From NCBI GenBank assembly GCA_027019175.1, contig JALUXB010000055.1:1-41830 (forward strand): DNA of 41,830 nucleotides, written 5' to 3'. Under the pieces are notes generated by a model. The model did not search any database. It was not told the origin of the DNA and saw only the letters and a program-made list of their open reading frames with translations. This DNA comes from Sulfurovum sp. GTDB taxonomy: Bacteria; Campylobacterota; Campylobacteria; Campylobacterales; Sulfurovaceae. Every line of letters starts with the position of its first letter. The first letter of the stretch is position 1. This document shows positions 642 through 10,624 of this stretch, in pieces. A program made the position numbers and the translations under genes.

Positions 642-3600
642 CTATTTTTTAATTTGTTTTATCATTTCCTTTTTAGAATTATCATTATCTATATCAAGTT
701 TTGCACAGATAGATTGCTTTTTAGCAAAATCAATATCAAACATATAAATATGTTCCAATACCATTTTCTTTAAAACAGAATCTGTTAAACGATTATTCTC
801 TTCTTTCAATAATTTATGTATCTTTTCAATTTTAGTAACATTTAAGCCTCCTTGAAAATCTAGTGCTATCCCATGGTTGATGAGCTCTATAGCTACATTC
901 CCTTCATTCTTAGAGAGAATTTCTTTATATATTTCAGTTAAATCTTTTGATCCAATAGATTTAGCAATTTTTTTTACAATACCAGTTGAAATCGATGAAA
1001 CCATAGCAAAAATCATATTTGCTATAGTTTCATGAATTTTATCATCAGTAATATATTGTTTTTTTGTAATAACTTCTTTTATCTCTTCTACTAATAACTC
1101 ATGGTTGTTTTCAAAAAATTCTACAAGTGATTTTAGGGATCTTAATCCAATACTATATGTTTCATTAATAAGTTCATATTTAATATCACCATCTAATGAA
1201 CCTGAATAGTTTTTTGTAATTTCACCTAAAATTTCAATCATTTTAAAAGCAAGATTTAACGTTGCAAACTGATTTAATTCTTGTATTTCTTCATTATAAT
1301 CTGCTTCATCTCTATCAATAGTATGATTTAAACTTTTAATTTTATCATTCTTATCTTTTTCTTCTAATTCTAAACTTCGCGACTCTTCAAGAGTTCTATT
1401 CTCTAATTTTAATTTTTCATTCTTGATTGATGAGTTTATTTTTGTTAATTCTTCTGGAGAAAATGTAAACTCAGAAATTTCTTGAAAAACATTTTTTGCT
1501 TCTTCAATAATTGATTCAAGGATAAAGTCCTGAGGAGAATGATGAATAAGAAACATTATTATATTCGCGAATTCTATTCGATATAGTCTCTTACACATTT
1601 GCTTAATTATATATTTTATTTTATCTTTACTAATATTGTCAGATAAATATTGTGCAACAAAAAAATAATAAATATAATCATGAGAAAACCTATACTCATT
1701 TTCATGTTCAGATAATATATTAGATTGCACTAATTTAGTTACAATATCAAAAGAAGGAGAAAATTTCTTTCGGCTACGATATTCTTTATCAAACTCTTCT
1801 AATTCACTTAAACTAAAAGTATATTGTTTTTGTGTTAGACATTCAAATGCTAAAGTAGAGGTATATGTAAAAATTGTATTAATATCTTTGGGTTCCATTG
1901 GAGAATTCGCATTAAGATATTTCATAATTAAAAATTCATAGTAATAACCATATGAACTTTTAGAGAGAGAATTAGTTTCATTTGTTTCCATAGCTTGAAG
2001 CAATGTTAATAAATAAATTGGATATGAAGGTACAATATTATATCCTATTGTTCTATTAATAGATGTGGCTTTTTCCCTAGTCTTAAAAATTAATTCTTTT
2101 CTATCTAAAGTTGTTTCTTGTCCTAATAAAATCCACTTTTGTATGATTTCTTCTCTTAATTTATGCCCAAACTCTAAAAGTTTATAGTGATTGAACTTCA
2201 GTAGTGATTTTGCCAATTCACCTTCTGTAGTCGCTTCTAATTGCAACGATTCATGAGCAAACAATAAAATATTATTGTAATTTAGCTCTGTTAGTGTTTT
2301 TATAAATTTAGCCTTGTACTCATTATTAAGCTTAGCTTCCTGAAAATCATCAATAAATATTAATACCTGATTTTTATCAATTTGTTCAAAAATAGATATA
2401 TCACAATCATATTGCTTCTTAAACGTCCTCTTTATTAATGCTTTAATTTTAGATGAATTACTATCATTACTTTTTATCTCTTTTCCTTGAATAATAATAG
2501 GTATTAATCCATCTCTTTTATATTTAAGTTGCAATATCCGACTTAGCGAAGTTTTTCCTGATGTTTCTGCACCATAAATGATTGAATAACCTATTTCAGT
2601 AATTGATTTGAACTTTTTAGAATTCTCTTCTAAAAATATATTTTTGTTTTTTGTATCACTACTTATAACCTGTAAATCAGGATAAACAAAAATATCCTCT
2701 AAAGTTATATTATCTTTTGTCGGATGTGTAACTTTAAGTCCCAAGACATTTAATTGTTTCTTATAAGTATCTTTTAATGGATAAATTGACTTTTTGCTAA
2801 ACGGTAAAGCAATATTACAATAAGTATGTTTTTTTGCATAGACATTGGTATTCCAACTAAATTCTGAGATATCTTGCTTATTATCTTCTAAATCAATATT
2901 TAATAAATTAAAACTACTACAATTCATATCTTTTGAATCTTGTAAAACTCCTGCTTCAAGATATTCAATGTGATCTTTCCGATCAATTTTTGCTTCTTTT
3001 GTGACACTATGTGTGTGTTCATGTCCTGTCATTACAATATTAGACGTAGAATTGATAAGCTCTTTAAATGATCTAATATTTTGATGCTGAAGCCAATGCA
3101 ATGGATGGTGGAATAAAGAGATAGTAATATTGTAGTTCTCATTTGAAATTAAATCTTTGTTAACCATATTTGAAGGATAAATGATTTCAGACTGTGATTC
3201 TTCTCTTTTTGATGCCCATGCTAAATTATATGAATTAAATGCAATACTATATTCGCCAATACTATATTCATATCGAGTAAATAAAGTATTAGATGCTTCA
3301 GTATTAATATTTCTTAATAAATTCTAAATATTCTTCTTGTACAGAAACACAAGTATCAATAAGTTCAGATGTAATCTTTTTTGGGTCAATAATAATATTA
3401 TCTATTATCAAATTTCTAACATCTTTATTTTTACTAAAATCACAATCATGATTTCCCGGTGTAAAGATAAATTCTATTTTTATATCACGATTATAGTTTT
3501 CTATTAATTCTTTTAAGCTTTCAATAAATAATTCAGCCTCATAATATTCACATGCCTGTCCAGAAAATGCTATATCACCAGTAAATACTATGAATAAATA

Positions 3601-3943: not shown

Positions 3944-4246
3944 ATGCTTCAGTATAGACGGCGCAACTCTACCGAACCGATACCAGATCGACGAACTATC
4001 CGCCATCCGTTATTGACATATACAAACTGGTCATATGACCAAAGTCAGCATCTTGATACACAAAGATTAGGACAACTTCTTAGAGAGTTTGATGAAACCT
4101 ACGGGCATATCTACATAAGACTGTTTAATGAAGTGCCAAGGGATATTATTCTCTCTTTTATGCAACAGGAAGGTATAGACGAAAGCCGGCTTGTTCATAT
4201 ATACCATGCAATGAATCGTCTTGGGGCTGACCTTAGACCCTATTAA
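3944..4246 (+). CDS. Small putative antitoxin partner of the AbiEii-like toxin
   Basis: This 100-residue protein starts behind a strong ribosome binding site and ends 5 bp before the next start codon, so the two are almost certainly one transcript. The N-terminal 30 residues are basic and possibly disordered (LQYRRRNSTEPIPDRR). The rest looks helical, with REFDETYGHIYIRLFNEVPRD followed by a segment suggesting a small helical bundle. It is not the classical AbiEi antitoxin, which is longer and has an N-terminal winged helix. I infer the antitoxin role from position alone. I do not recognise the family. Confidence 0.7.
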   Translation: MLQYRRRNSTEPIPDRRTIRHPLLTYTNWSYDQSQHLDTQRLGQLLREFDETYGHIYIRLFNEVPRDIILSFMQQEGIDESRLVHIYHAMNRLGADLRPY

Positions 4247-4251
4247 GCAAC

Positions 4252-5124
4252 ATGAACACCTATAACTTTTCTTCTCAGTCAGAACTTTTTCAAATAGCAT
4301 TGGAAATCCTTGATGACTATGGCATTAAGTCATGGTCATTTGGTGGAGGTACTGCACTTTCCCTACTTTACTATCAACATCGAATGTCCTATGACATCGA
4401 CATCTTTCTTGAAGATTACAGCGAAATACAAAAAATCATCAGATATCAAGAGGAGATAGCCGGAAATCTTGGCATTGATCCCTTATCGGTTCAATCTTCC
4501 TCTACCGGTGTAACCTTTATTATCGATGATGCCAACTATGGATTGAAAATGGATTTTGTTTATTCTGAACCTCTTACAAAAGATCCATTTCGCTATACTC
4601 AGGTCTTCGGTAGAGACAATATCAAAGTGCAAACTGCCAAAGAGATCATCTCCAAAAAACTGAAATATCGAGAAAAAGCAACGATACGTGATTTTGTAGA
4701 TTATGCCATTGCAGAAAAACGAGATAAAATTCTGACACAACTCAAAGCAGAATCAATCGTAGATATTGATCGATATTTCGATGTAATAGAGAAGTTTAAC
4801 AGTATCAAAAAAACATTTTTCGATAAAGAACTTGAAGGACTAATGCCCGGACAAAAGAAAGTCAAAGAGGATTTTGAAGAGACAATAACTACTTTAATGC
4901 AACCTTCAAACACTGTAACTGTAGCCCTTGATCATACCGGAGAAGTAGTAGCATTTGATGAATTCATTGACGAATACCGTTCACTTTATGAAGAGCTTGG
5001 CAGTTTCTCTATATACACGATCAATAATCCCAGATTAAGCTACAAAGAGATTTTGCAATTGAATAAAGAGGCTGTCTTGGCACTAACAACACAAGAGCAA
5101 AACCATTTTAAAAATGATCCATAG
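4252..5124 (+). CDS. AbiEii/AbiGii-type nucleotidyltransferase toxin
   Basis: The 290-residue protein has the signature of the AbiEii/AbiGii (DUF1814) nucleotidyltransferases: GGGTALSL at 31-38, HR at 43-44 and SYDIDIF at 46-52. The last carries the two metal-binding aspartates, 48 and 50. A later segment, KEIISKKLKYR then RDFVDYAI, matches the Lys/Arg-rich helix that contributes catalytic residues in MenT/AbiEii enzymes. Known relatives add nucleotides to tRNA acceptor ends or otherwise block translation, as type IV-like toxins or phage-abortive factors. The C-terminal 120 residues are less familiar. The pair may be a free-standing toxin-antitoxin module beside the phosphoesterase-NTPase gene. 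Family confidence is high; the activity is untested. Confidence 0.88.
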   Translation: MNTYNFSSQSELFQIALEILDDYGIKSWSFGGGTALSLLYYQHRMSYDIDIFLEDYSEIQKIIRYQEEIAGNLGIDPLSVQSSSTGVTFIIDDANYGLKMDFVYSEPLTKDPFRYTQVFGRDNIKVQTAKEIISKKLKYREKATIRDFVDYAIAEKRDKILTQLKAESIVDIDRYFDVIEKFNSIKKTFFDKELEGLMPGQKKVKEDFEETITTLMQPSNTVTVALDHTGEVVAFDEFIDEYRSLYEELGSFSIYTINNPRLSYKEILQLNKEAVLALTTQEQNHFKNDP

Positions 5125-5155: not shown

Positions 5156-7417
5156 CTAAGCCTCCAACTTCTCCCTCACAAGGTCATTAACCACCTTCGG
5201 ATTCGCCTTGCCGCCTGTCGCTTTGAGCACCTGCCCGACAAAGAAACCAAAGAGTTTTTGGTTGCCGTCTCTGTATTTAGCGACATTGTCAGGGTTCTTG
5301 GCAATGACATCATCGATGATAGGGGCTATCTCGGCAGGGTTGCTGATCTGCTTCAGCCCTTTCTCTTCGACAATGGTCTCCGGTGCTTTTCCGGTGGCAG
5401 TCATCTCTTCAAAAACCTGTTTGGCGATTTTGCTTGAGATGGTCTCCTCATCGAGCATTTTGGCAAGTTCTGCGACCTCTTTGGCACCGAAAGTAAGGCT
5501 ATCGGTACCATTTTCTTTGAACACACGTGCGACATCGTTGGCAACAATGTTGGCGATGGTGACTGGGCTTTCGTGGGCAGCAACAGCTTCGTCGAAGAAG
5601 TGTGAAAGCTTCTCGTCACGCGCAAGGGTGTTTGCCACTTCCGGGTTGAGCTTGTACTCATGGGTGAAGCGGTCGTATCGTCCCTGTTCCTCGGCACTCA
5701 TAGGGGCGACTTCACCCTCTTTTTGTACCGGTTTTGGCTGTTTTTGCTTTTTGGCAGGCTGCGGTTTGGGTTTCTCTTTTTTTGCCCATGAGTCTTTGAG
5801 CCCGACGATCTTGTTAAAGACGGGGTTCTCATCACTGTAATCTACCGGATCAGCATAGAAGTACCCCTCACGCTCGAACTGGAAGCGTACATCGGGCTTT
5901 TCTTCGATCACCGCAGGTTCAATAAGCGCATTCTTGATGACTTTCAAAGAATCTGGGTTGAGATCGTCCAGTCCTTCGGGTGCTTCACATTTAAAGAGTC
6001 TGTCATACACTCTTACCTCTGCTTTTTTGGCAGATGCGGCATCGACCCACTGGATGGCACTGCGTACTTTGATGCCGCTGGTATCTGAGCCGCTTTTGGA
6101 GTCTGGGTAGTACTCGGCTTTGATCTCGACAATGTTGCCTTCTGCATCTTTAACCACCTCTTTGCATGCGATGATATAGGCGTGCTTGAGTCTGACAGGC
6201 TGCTCGGGTGTCAGGCGGTAGTAGCCCTTTGGCGGATGTTCGCTGAAGTCGTTTCGGTCGATGTAGATCTCTTTGGAAAACGGCAGTTTTCGGCTCCCCT
6301 CTTTTGGGACATCGTGCGGATAATACGATGCATCGAGCAGTTCACTGCCCTCATAGTTTTCAATGGTCACTTTCAGCGGGTCAAGCACACACATCACACG
6401 CGGTACTTTGGTGTTCAGGTCATCACGGATGCAGAACTCAAGCTGTGCGACATCGACCGTGGAGTTGGCTTTGGCAACCCCGATCTGCTCACAGAACGTG
6501 ATGATAGACTCAGGCGTGTAGCCTCTGCGTTTGTAGCCGGCAATGGTAGGCAGACGCGGATCATCCCAGCCGTTGACGTAGCCACCCTCTACCAGTTCGA
6601 GCAGTTTTCGCTTGCTCATGACCGTATAGTTCATGTTCAATCTGGCGAACTCATACTGGTACGGGCGCGGCGGCTTGAGCCCAAGTGTCTCGATGACCCA
6701 GTCGTAGATGTCGCGGTTGTTTTCAAACTCCAACGTACACAGAGAGTGGGTAATGCCCTCCATGTAGTCCGAAAGACAGTGCGCAAAGTCATACATGGGG
6801 TAGACATGCCAACCCTCGCCCACACGGTAGTGGCTGGCGTGACGAATGCGGTAGAGCAGCGGATCGCGCATCTTCATATTGGGTGAAGCCATGTCAATCT
6901 TTGCACGGAGTACGTGCGCCCCCTCTTCGAACTCGCCGTTTTTCATACGCTCAAACAGGTCGAGGTTCTCCTCCACGCTGCGCTGGGCATACTTGCTGCG
7001 TCGTCCGGGTTCTGTGACCGTACCGCGGTACTCGCGGATCTCCTCTTCGTTCAGGCTGTCAACATACGCCTTCTCCATTTTGATGAGTTCAACGGCATAG
7101 TCGTAGAGTTTACCAAAGTAGTCAGAGGTAAAGTAGACCTTCTTGCCCCAGTCAAACCCAAGCCACTTGACCGCATCTTTGAGCGCTTCGACATACTTCA
7201 TGTCTTCTTTGGTCGGGTCGGTATCGTCCATTCTGAGGTTACATTGCCCGTTAAAATCGCGTGCAATACCAAAGTTCAGGACAATCGACTTGGCATGCCC
7301 GATGTGCGGAAAGCCGTTTGGTTCGGGCGGGAAACGGGTATGCACTGCCTCATATTTGCCCGCTTTGAGGTCCTCTTCAACAATGGCGCGTAGAAAATCT
7401 TTTTTTGTTTCACTCAT
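5156..7417 (-). CDS. glnS: Glutaminyl-tRNA synthetase with C-terminal YqeY/GatB-like domain
   Basis: This is a class I aminoacyl-tRNA synthetase of 753 residues that charges tRNA(Gln) with glutamine. PPEPNGFPHIGHAKS places HIGH at 38-41, and VMSKR at 266-270 is the KMSKS-type loop. The GlnRS-typical FEFENNRDIYDW-like segment and the beta-barrel anticodon-binding region follow up to about 545. A Lys/Pro-rich linker (about 545-572) joins a YqeY/GatB-tail domain of about 180 residues (573-753), a tRNA-binding module that also ends GatB of the amidotransferase. Such fusions are known in several bacteria. Many Campylobacterota lack GlnRS and use GatCAB, so this gene bears directly on the degenerate GluRS next door. 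It is convergent with the toxin gene, 31 bp away. Confidence 0.96.
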   Translation of the reverse strand: MSETKKDFLRAIVEEDLKAGKYEAVHTRFPPEPNGFPHIGHAKSIVLNFGIARDFNGQCNLRMDDTDPTKEDMKYVEALKDAVKWLGFDWGKKVYFTSDYFGKLYDYAVELIKMEKAYVDSLNEEEIREYRGTVTEPGRRSKYAQRSVEENLDLFERMKNGEFEEGAHVLRAKIDMASPNMKMRDPLLYRIRHASHYRVGEGWHVYPMYDFAHCLSDYMEGITHSLCTLEFENNRDIYDWVIETLGLKPPRPYQYEFARLNMNYTVMSKRKLLELVEGGYVNGWDDPRLPTIAGYKRRGYTPESIITFCEQIGVAKANSTVDVAQLEFCIRDDLNTKVPRVMCVLDPLKVTIENYEGSELLDASYYPHDVPKEGSRKLPFSKEIYIDRNDFSEHPPKGYYRLTPEQPVRLKHAYIIACKEVVKDAEGNIVEIKAEYYPDSKSGSDTSGIKVRSAIQWVDAASAKKAEVRVYDRLFKCEAPEGLDDLNPDSLKVIKNALIEPAVIEEKPDVRFQFEREGYFYADPVDYSDENPVFNKIVGLKDSWAKKEKPKPQPAKKQKQPKPVQKEGEVAPMSAEEQGRYDRFTHEYKLNPEVANTLARDEKLSHFFDEAVAAHESPVTIANIVANDVARVFKENGTDSLTFGAKEVAELAKMLDEETISSKIAKQVFEEMTATGKAPETIVEEKGLKQISNPAEIAPIIDDVIAKNPDNVAKYRDGNQKLFGFFVGQVLKATGGKANPKVVNDLVREKLEA

Positions 7418-7781: not shown

Positions 7782-9059
7782 ATGCTTAGATTTGCCCCCT
7801 CGCCTACCCATGACCTGACCATAGATGAGCTACGTGCCGCAATCATAAGCTTCGTTGTCGCCAGGCAGCGTCAGGAGCCTTTCTTGGTGCGCATTGATGA
7901 CCTTGACAAAGCACATGTTATTGAAGGCAAAGATACCGAGATCATGCAGATTCTCGAAAAATTCTCCATTACACACGACCAGCTCTTTCACCTGAGTGAA
8001 CATGCCAATATCCATCTTACCCTCGCACTACAGCTTCTCAAAGAAAAAAAAGCTTTCATTTGTACCTGTACGGCATCTACGCGTGAAGAGACCGAAAATA
8101 CCCCCTGCCGTGCCGGCTGTGCAACTGTTGAAACAGAGACATACACAAACTTAAAAGAGAACGGTACCCCCTTTGTCATTCGTCTCAAAGCACCTCAGAG
8201 CGATGTTACGTTCCATGACATTTACCGGGGTAACATCACTGCAAAGCCCGAAACTCTGACCGATACGGTCATTCTCCATGCTGATGCAACACCCGGTTGC
8301 GACTTTGCCTCTGCCGCCGAAGATATGCTCAACAATATCAGCCTTGTTATCCGTCCGGAAAACAGACTTGAGAGAACGCCGGTTCAGGAGTATATCAAGC
8401 AAGAACTTGGCTACAGTGAAGAGACACGCTATGCTCACTTGTCCACATTGCTCCCCCCAACAGGCGAAGCACATCTTCCTTCACTGAAAATGCTTTTTGA
8501 AGAGGGGTACATCCCTGATGCGATCATCAACTATCTGCTGCTTACAGGCAACCCTAAAGCGCCAAAAGCAGTTTTTACCCTGCCCGAAGCCATAGCGTGG
8601 TTCGAACTTGAAGCACTCTCTTCCAAGCCTGAGCAGTTCGACATGGAAACCCTGCGCTATCTTAACCGTGAACATCTGCTTCACATGGACGACAAACGCC
8701 TCTCGACACTTTTTGGCTTTGCCGATGCAGCCATAGGAAAGCTGGCGAAAGTCTATCTTGAAGCTGAAAAGGCAAGCACTGTCTCGGAACTGGAAACCTA
8801 TATCCGAGCCATCTTTACACCCAAAAACTTCGAATGTGAAGCAGGTGAAGCAATGCGCAGTCTCAGCGAGATCATCTGGAATGCGCCGATGATCGACACA
8901 TATGAAGCCTTCATTGCCCACCTGTGCCGTGAAAGCGGTACAGACAAAGAGACGCTGATACCGGCTCTGAGACTGCTGCTTACCGGTACAGACCGGGGGC
9001 CGGAACTTGAAACACTCTACCCACACATCAAATCTTATCTACTGGAGGTTATCTCATGA
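7782..9059 (+). CDS. Glutamyl-tRNA synthetase paralogue lacking catalytic motifs
   Basis: The 425 residues align along their length with the second GluRS (about 430-440 residues) of Helicobacter and Campylobacter: FAPSPT at 4-9, ARQRQEPFLVRIDD at 27-40, and a C-terminal anticodon-domain end RLLLTG. The active site is gone. HIGN is replaced by TIDE at 13-16. The RGEDH loop is RPENR at 191-195. The PTYNFA substrate pocket reads PGCDFA. Where KKMSKRD should sit (about 226-232) there is only TGEAHLP, with a gap of about six residues. A Cys cluster (94, 96, 109, 113) resembles the zinc knuckle. ATG 7782 is chosen because the ATG at 7778 runs into a stop. The gene overlaps YggT by ATGA. An intact frame with so many motif losses suggests a non-catalytic role, or decay after GlnRS took over tRNA(Gln) charging. 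Confidence 0.88.
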   Translation: MLRFAPSPTHDLTIDELRAAIISFVVARQRQEPFLVRIDDLDKAHVIEGKDTEIMQILEKFSITHDQLFHLSEHANIHLTLALQLLKEKKAFICTCTASTREETENTPCRAGCATVETETYTNLKENGTPFVIRLKAPQSDVTFHDIYRGNITAKPETLTDTVILHADATPGCDFASAAEDMLNNISLVIRPENRLERTPVQEYIKQELGYSEETRYAHLSTLLPPTGEAHLPSLKMLFEEGYIPDAIINYLLLTGNPKAPKAVFTLPEAIAWFELEALSSKPEQFDMETLRYLNREHLLHMDDKRLSTLFGFADAAIGKLAKVYLEAEKASTVSELETYIRAIFTPKNFECEAGEAMRSLSEIIWNAPMIDTYEAFIAHLCRESGTDKETLIPALRLLLTGTDRGPELETLYPHIKSYLLEVIS

Positions 9060-9334
9060 TCGATGCATTCTTTTTTGCACTGCTGCAAATTGTACATACC
9101 GTTATCAACATTTACATCTGGATCGTTATCATTTCAGCACTGCTGAGTTTTGTACGGCCAGACCCCTACAACCCTATTGTCCAGACACTCTACCGCCTTA
9201 CCGAACCGGTTTACGGCTGGATCAGACGCCGTTTTCCCTTTGTAATCATGGGCGGCATCGATCTCTCGCCGCTGGTCATTATTCTGGCATTGCAATTTCT
9301 CGATATTTTCATGATGCGCGCCTTTTTAGGGTAA
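9056..9334 (+). CDS. YggT family membrane protein
   Basis: This 92-residue integral membrane protein has two hydrophobic segments (about 5-30 and 62-88) separated by a polar loop with RPDPYNPIVQTLYRLTEPV, the YggT hallmark. YggT proteins have been linked to osmotic or ion stress and to chloroplast cytochrome b6 assembly (CCB3); the exact function in bacteria is unclear. The ATG overlaps the stop of the preceding gene (ATGA), indicating translational coupling. slt follows after 3 bp. The same YggT-slt order is known downstream of gltX in Campylobacter. Confidence 0.9.
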   Translation: MIDAFFFALLQIVHTVINIYIWIVIISALLSFVRPDPYNPIVQTLYRLTEPVYGWIRRRFPFVIMGGIDLSPLVIILALQFLDIFMMRAFLG

Positions 9335-9337
9335 ACC

Positions 9338-10624
9338 ATGGTCAGAAAAGTCGCCGGTGCACTGCTGCTGTCGCTCAGCCTTCTTGTCAATGCAGCCGAG
9401 GCAAAAACGTTCACCTACACACAGGTGCATAATATGCCAAAAAGTGTGGAAAAAGACTACTATATCTGGCGTTTTCTGAGACAGCGAAGCACCACTGCGG
9501 CTCAGGCACGCAGCATTATCCGTGAAACCAACAGCTTGAATAAAAAGCTGAAAGAGGCATATCGCCGAAAAACCGGCGGCTACCCTGACTTTCACCCTAA
9601 GCCTGTACGCTACCGGGTCAATGATGCCGACAAGTGGAAAAACCGTTCACAGGGGAACTTCGCTTTTAAAAAAGGCATTGCTATGGTACAGCGGAACGAA
9701 CTCCGCCGCGCAGCAGAATACTTTAACGCTGCCTACCGTATTTACGAAGACCGCTGGGAGAAAGACAAAGCGCTCTTCTGGCTCTACCTTGTAACAAAGA
9801 ACAAATACTATCTTCAACAGCTCAAACACAGTTACCATATCAATATGTATACGCTGCTTGCAGCCGATCTCACCCACAGTAAATACCCAAGCACCATTGT
9901 TGTACCCAAAGTGTCCAAAGACAGTGTCTGGGGCATCGATGCGCAGGATCCTATTGCATGGGCAAAGATGAAACGCAAGATATTTGCCGGCAATATCGAC
10001 CTCGATGACCTTGCAGACACCTGCCGTTCGAAAGAGACCATCGGGATGCACACCTATATCAAAGCACGTGCATGCAACTACCGCAAGTCCTACTTCCCCA
10101 TGCCCTACCGTGACCTGATGAAACACTACAGCGTCGAGCGTCAGGCACTCATCTATGCCATTGCACGTCAGGAGAGCCGCTTTGTTCCTGCTGCTATCTC
10201 CCGCTCTTTTGCACTGGGAATGATGCAATTCATGCCCTTTCTCATCGATCATGTCGCCAAACAGAAAGGGGAACGCATCGACTACGATGATATATTCAAT
10301 CCCTATAAAGCCATTGAATATGCCGACTACCATCTGGACTATCTCAACAAATACCTCTATCACCCGCTCTTCATTGCCTACGCCTACAACGGCGGCATCG
10401 GCTTTACCAAACGACTCATCCGTAAAAAAGGCAATTTCAGACCCGGGCGCTTCGAGCCCTATCTTAGTATGGAAAAAATGAAAAATGCCGAAGCGAGAGA
10501 ATACGGCAAAAAAGTTCTCACCAACTACATTGTTTATATGAACCTGCTGGGCAAGCCCATCCGTTTGCTTCCGTTTCTCAAAACCCTTACCGACCCGAGT
10601 ATGACAGACCGCTTCAGAAAGTAG
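9338..10624 (+). CDS. slt: Soluble lytic murein transglycosylase
   Basis: The 428-residue periplasmic enzyme cleaves the glycan strand of peptidoglycan with formation of 1,6-anhydro ends. Residues 1-22 form a signal peptide ending near AEA. A helical superhelix-like region fills the middle. The goose-type lysozyme SLT domain starts near 268 with IYAIARQESRF, whose Glu279 is the predicted catalytic acid. GMMQFMP and the AYNGG motif follow as expected for family 1 transglycosylases. It is shorter than E. coli Slt70, as in other Campylobacterota. It lies third in the gltX-like transcription unit. Confidence 0.94.
   Translation: MVRKVAGALLLSLSLLVNAAEAKTFTYTQVHNMPKSVEKDYYIWRFLRQRSTTAAQARSIIRETNSLNKKLKEAYRRKTGGYPDFHPKPVRYRVNDADKWKNRSQGNFAFKKGIAMVQRNELRRAAEYFNAAYRIYEDRWEKDKALFWLYLVTKNKYYLQQLKHSYHINMYTLLAADLTHSKYPSTIVVPKVSKDSVWGIDAQDPIAWAKMKRKIFAGNIDLDDLADTCRSKETIGMHTYIKARACNYRKSYFPMPYRDLMKHYSVERQALIYAIARQESRFVPAAISRSFALGMMQFMPFLIDHVAKQKGERIDYDDIFNPYKAIEYADYHLDYLNKYLYHPLFIAYAYNGGIGFTKRLIRKKGNFRPGRFEPYLSMEKMKNAEAREYGKKVLTNYIVYMNLLGKPIRLLPFLKTLTDPSMTDRFRK

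Follow-up and report, generated by a model that had tools for sequence, protein, structure and literature searches.

Degeneration and retention of the second glutamyl-tRNA synthetase in GlnRS-carrying Campylobacterota

At many loci of the Campylobacterota class, the second glutamyl-tRNA synthetase (GluRS2) has lost its catalytic motifs, a degeneration that recurs across six families and goes together with the presence of a glutaminyl-tRNA synthetase (GlnRS); the degenerate proteins nevertheless remain under purifying selection, and the relative constraint on their parts has shifted. One of these genes lies in the window, i.e. the whole stretch of 41,830 nucleotides of Sulfurovum sp. DNA that was analysed. 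We consider it quite probable that gain of GlnRS freed GluRS2 from catalysis and that the protein has been kept for a second, non-catalytic role residing in the first part of its anticodon-binding domain (AC1) and in its C-terminal helix.

The window protein, its motifs and its surroundings

The gene at 7782-9059 (forward strand) is an ATG-started frame of 425 codons that stays open throughout. Its product matches the Pfam profile tRNA-synt_1c (E 5e-38) and, nearly end to end, the NCBIfam profile gltX_bact (TIGR00464), albeit with 233.7 bits and hence below the equivalog cut-off of 289.95 that marks active GluRSs. The AlphaFold2 model (pLDDT 91.8, pTM 0.88) finds its best PDB match in 3afh (Z 34.0, rmsd 3.1, 410 residues aligned, span 1-425), and a complete GluRS fold comprising both the catalytic and the anticodon-binding parts is confidently predicted; a confident fold (pLDDT 91.2) is also predicted for one of the most diverged degenerate orthologs, which has only 371 residues. 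The open frame, the profile match and the predicted fold thus bear out an earlier note on this DNA, which had described the protein as intact and as aligning along its length with GluRS2. Its closest relatives are GluRS2 proteins, at up to 93% identity as against about 30% to GluRS1, and in the tree it clusters with the GluRS2 of its genus-mates. Identity with GluQRS was rejected, given a score of 119.7 against a cut-off of 276.7 bits (TIGR03838) and a length of 425 residues that includes a C-terminal anticodon-binding domain.

When the motifs were compared with those of intact orthologs by alignment, the former ATP-site motif HIGN was found as TIDE (7818-7829), PTYNFA with its glutamate-site tyrosine as PGCDFA (8292-8309), and RGEDH as RPENR (8352-8366), while the KMSKS loop is deleted, KKMSKRD being reduced to EAH (8466-8474; all on the forward strand), as it is absent from most degenerate orthologs. 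Neither HIGH nor KMSKS, the two motifs expected of an active GluRS, is therefore in place. All four changes had been read from the sequence in the earlier note and are real; its broader statement that every catalytic signature is gone holds for these four motifs but not beyond them, as RFAPSP retains its R3 and S7, and the Glu of RIEDTD has changed no further than to Asp (RIDDLD). The protein is thus best described as a pseudo-GluRS2 whose ability to charge tRNA(Gln) with glutamate is predicted from its sequence to be lost, and it presumably has no enzyme activity. Among the sites that are kept are the zinc-knuckle-like cysteines C94-x-C96, C109 and C113 (8061-8120, forward strand); about 90% of degenerate orthologs have Cys in the columns of C94, C96 and C113 (each of the three in 56 to 59 of the 65 degenerate ones of the window's family, f1), and the knuckle may bind zinc.

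A complete GlnRS directly upstream and in the opposite direction, likewise pointed out before, is indeed encoded at 5156-7417 (reverse strand; NF011291, 1221 bits); it carries a C-terminal GatB/YqeY-type domain, its HIGH and MSK motifs are intact, and it starts 364 bp upstream of the divergent pseudo-GluRS2 gene. Downstream, yggT (9056-9334, forward strand) begins within the pseudo-GluRS2 stop, the two sharing the ATGA at 9056-9059, and is followed by the next gene on that strand, encoding a lytic transglycosylase by its SLT domain match (slt, 9338-10624). The proposed translational coupling to yggT accords with this overlap, but yggT also possesses a Shine-Dalgarno-like GGAGG of its own. Tail to tail with the GlnRS gene stands an AbiEii-type nucleotidyltransferase gene (3944-5124, forward strand; PF08843, E 2e-12; type IV toxin-antitoxin family), which is preceded by a 100-aa ORF and adjoined by a gene (642-3167, reverse strand) for an 841-aa protein with an apparent metallophosphatase-NTPase layout.

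The host genome (2.2 Mb in 87 contigs, 99.99% complete, 4.75% contamination) encodes exactly three proteins with a GluRS/GlnRS catalytic domain, namely the GlnRS, the pseudo-GluRS2 and a canonical GluRS1 (gltX) of 466 aa on another contig. A search for gltX and gatCAB elsewhere in the genome, which had been recommended, thus recovers the former and, for the latter, GatB. No AsnRS scored above its cut-off in a profile search of this genome, and with GatB present GatCAB would be needed for Asn-tRNA whatever befalls Gln.

GluRS2 state, GlnRS presence and selection across the class

GluRS2 was read from 155 genomes (108 of f1 and 47 of other families of the class), and its state was scored on 11 catalytic-site residues, of which all or nearly all are kept in genomes that lack GlnRS and mostly 3 to 10 are lost in those that carry it. 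Among f1 genomes with a completeness of 90% or more, those without GlnRS have 20 intact and 2 degenerate genes, and those with it 5 intact and 49 degenerate ones (Fisher 9e-12); in the other families the respective counts are 18 and 0, and 1 and 28 (Fisher 4e-12). The two f1 exceptions are a genome (G037) with a single such domain in its whole assembly and one (G005) whose gene is a fragment lying at the end of a contig. Eleven genera hold both intact GlnRS-free and degenerate GlnRS-carrying species, and the reverse is found in none. On the GluRS1 tree, which includes one misread row (G081) on a long branch, the state of GluRS2 changes 12-14 times; its strongly supported branches yield seven independent contrasts with a mean of 5.3 in the expected direction and none in the opposite one, although sign tests limited to these branches give p of about 0.06-0.13. 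The association, near-perfect across the class and within genera, strongly supports the idea, put forward in the earlier note, that gain of GlnRS removed the need for the mischarging enzyme. GluRS2 is still intact in seven genomes that carry GlnRS, so catalytic loss is not immediate; these look like recent GlnRS acquisitions. In eight near-complete genomes (G134, G136, G168, G235, G240 (genus g23, family f2), G125, G233 (f5) and G339) neither a clear GluRS2 nor a GlnRS was found, and GluRS1 would have to charge tRNA(Gln) there as well.

In which direction did these events run? The tree of GlnRS disagrees with that of the species, the GlnRSs of genus g1 being scattered over several positions and that of the window grouping with the GlnRS of a g2 genome, which implies repeated transfer of GlnRS. 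Degenerate GluRS2 proteins, in contrast, group with the intact GluRS2 of their own genus. Joint transfer of GlnRS with an already dead GluRS2 is therefore disfavoured, and the trees fit repeated GlnRS transfer, after which GluRS2 catalysis decayed locally. The gene immediately upstream of GluRS2 is often that for GlnRS, in divergent or tandem orientation; by coordinates this applies to 11 of the 20 genomes assembled into one or two contigs, and insertion or exchange of GlnRS at this site seems to be favoured. The immediate upstream position recurs in several families and in two orientations despite the discordant phylogeny (L034, L219, L236, L248), as though GlnRS had repeatedly landed at this site.

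Could the degenerate genes simply be pseudogenes? An ordinary pseudogene or an assembly artefact is ruled out by the omega values and by the recurrence of the same state in many genomes. Neither stops or frameshifts nor an omega near 1 mark these genes: no internal stop occurs among the GluRS2 orthologs that were read, whereas neutral evolution over 17 degenerate pairs should have produced roughly 412 nonsense hits, a rough figure since a few pairs share branches. Between the window gene and its nearest relative, both predicted dead, pairwise dN/dS is 0.123, and maximum-likelihood codon models place omega at 0.086-0.214 in eight degenerate clades against 0.043-0.047 in three intact ones; for the window's clade omega=1 is rejected at a cost of 244 log units (lnL -6405.4 versus -6649.1). 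The comparison of dN/dS among relatives that had been suggested beforehand thus gives values far below 1.

Remaining constraint and its possible explanations

Constraint has not relaxed evenly. From intact f1 pairs to degenerate pairs, most of them also from f1, the catalytic part increases in omega from 0.054 to 0.209, and AC1 (residues 304-348; 8691-8825, forward strand), where degenerate orthologs are most tightly constrained, from 0.063 to just 0.119, so that the AC1/catalytic ratio is 0.57 [0.41-0.76] in degenerate and 1.17 [0.67-1.64] in intact pairs; in degenerate f1 pairs, AC1 identity is 0.60 at a whole-protein identity of 0.42. A seemingly higher conservation of AC1 in degenerate genes than in intact ones was set aside, as it is partly explained by the broader range of species that the intact set covers; when only f1 is considered, the two states conserve AC1 to about the same degree, and the shift lies in the relative constraint. 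The C-terminal helix (9006-9053, forward strand) holds the nearly invariant Y413, Y419 and E422, found in 64, 64 and 65 of the 65 degenerate f1 orthologs. Numbered by T. thermophilus columns, N314, K353, T361, K376, Y451 and Y459 are kept in 64 and E462 in all 65 of these orthologs, in which H15, Y187, the KMSKS loop, R47, K426, K428 and F431 are mostly lost. A protein-contact function would be expected to leave such a pattern, whereas a substrate sensor or a tRNA-charging enzyme would not.

We therefore favour a scheme in which, once catalysis was no longer selected, the contacts to ATP, Glu and tRNA would have decayed, and the folded protein would have been retained for a second role, in the simplest case a protein-protein contact, carried by the helical anticodon-binding domain (304-348) and the C-terminal helix. 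This role may well be older than the arrival of GlnRS, which would have unmasked it; an older function is preferred over new recruitment because many independent losses spare the same region. The reuse in a non-catalytic role envisaged in the earlier note thus gains support from selection as far as the role itself is concerned, and less so as a fresh recruitment. It could be, at somewhat less than even odds, that GluRS2 has two functions throughout the Campylobacterota, with a non-catalytic role also borne by the AC1 helices of the charging enzymes in Helicobacter and Campylobacter, in which case repeated gain of GlnRS would have separated the two, removing the enzyme and exposing the other role.

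Who might the partner be? GatCAB is the leading candidate because GluRS2 and GatCAB of Helicobacter pylori form a transamidosome, as PMC4027206 and PMC8406222 cite from Huot et al. 2011, and because GatB occurs in 40 and AsnRS in none of the 41 GlnRS-carrying genomes tested. That GluRS2 binds or tunes a GatCAB still required for Asn-tRNA(Asn) is nonetheless a tentative proposal. With GatB kept and AsnRS absent nearly everywhere, there is little variation by which co-loss could reveal a dependence. Retention also has its limits: in one genome (G345) yggT and slt come right after GlnRS with no GluRS2 in between, two others (G319 and G178) have a shortened GluRS2, and a profile search found no hidden diverged GluRS2 near GlnRS in G345, G308 or G165. 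GatB persists in all five, which indicates that GatCAB has no strict need for GluRS2, and the residual role would accordingly be useful yet dispensable in some lineages. The clean absence in G345 (locus L255) is the apparent end point of a series of decay.

These truncations and clean deletions are also what would be expected if the gene were functionless and on its way to deletion, with a frame kept open since stops would be polar on yggT and slt; yggT directly follows GluRS2 in 220 of 236 loci, and the ATGA overlap is in keeping with this. Polarity, however, guards the frame alone and would leave the amino acids unprotected, whereas omega is 0.09-0.21 and the polar residues K353, T361, K376 and E462 persist in 64-65 of 65 orthologs; moreover, clean deletion is possible but rare, and yggT has its own ribosome-binding site, all of which makes slow decay unlikely. 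A catalysis-free binder of tRNA(Gln) or tRNA(Glu), acting as a chaperone, decoy or sensor of uncharged tRNA, would agree with the kept fold of the anticodon-binding domain and with the partial retention of R435 (39/65), G444 (48/65) and E358 (48/65), but the basic residues of LKGKxFFKPLR are lost or acidic, often E/D (K426 is kept in 8/65 and K428 in 7/65), R47 is kept in 12/65, and we regard this alternative as quite improbable. The net charge of the catalytic domain, which falls from about -3 to -11 in the degenerate form, points the same way, although the argument is weak as active GluRS1 is equally negative. Finally, the persistence of R3, S7 and the Rossmann core, together with a RIEDTD Glu often merely changed to Asp, might suggest a remodelled active site with altered chemistry or one that senses Glu or ATP. 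However, which catalytic residues are gone, and how, varies from lineage to lineage, no conserved residue has newly arisen in the pocket in their stead and most lineages have deleted the KMSKS loop; the Glu/ATP sensing suggested in the earlier note is disfavoured because the losses affect the very residues by which Glu, ATP and the acceptor end would be bound. Such an active site is very improbable indeed.

Relation to known systems

Degenerate GluRS2 probably has a second, non-enzymatic role that has hitherto been undescribed; a literature search, with most subscription journals outside its scope, returned no published account of GluRS2 degeneration. Non-catalytic synthetase paralogues have so far been known singly, and here the phenomenon is repeated across six families with intact and dead forms within the same genera. 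A second function of a synthetase thereby becomes mappable by comparison alone, and the steps by which a direct route to Gln-tRNA replaces an indirect one become visible. A note of caution follows for annotation, as many 'glutamate-tRNA ligases' of this group are probably non-charging proteins.

Dasgupta and Basu (2014; PMC3927822) reported that six epsilon-proteobacteria, including Sulfurovum, carry both GluRS2 and GlnRS, that the YqeY-type GlnRS of these species was acquired by transfer, and that this GlnRS was suspected to be non-functional since GluRS2 is always present. The present sequences reverse this suspicion and point to GluRS2, not GlnRS, as the idle partner. In H. pylori, the genome of which lacks GlnRS, GluRS2 charges tRNA(Gln) (PMC9976931). 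The window protein is its ortholog by sequence and by the genus-level tree, has the same length and fold, and is followed by yggT in most relatives; it differs in having lost catalytic and tRNA-contact residues and in coexisting with GlnRS.

GluQRS (YadB) is a paralogue of the GluRS catalytic domain that lacks the anticodon-binding domain and keeps catalysis; the window protein, by contrast, has that domain and is predicted to have lost catalysis. In Thermotoga maritima, one GluRS of a duplicated pair is described as inactive (PMC3927822), and there, too, a second GluRS has been reported not to charge tRNA, but that protein is a gene duplicate from another phylum and is not linked there to gain of GlnRS. 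By analogy, the functionally closest known kind is HisZ, a non-catalytic HisRS paralogue that serves as the regulatory subunit of HisG (reviewed in PMC9437257). As in HisZ, catalytic residues are lost from a protein under purifying selection, and a synthetase fold is kept without charging and would, in GluRS2, likewise act by protein contact. The two differ in synthetase class and pathway and in that the partner of HisZ is known, and, unlike HisZ, dead GluRS2 originated repeatedly and in parallel following gene transfer.
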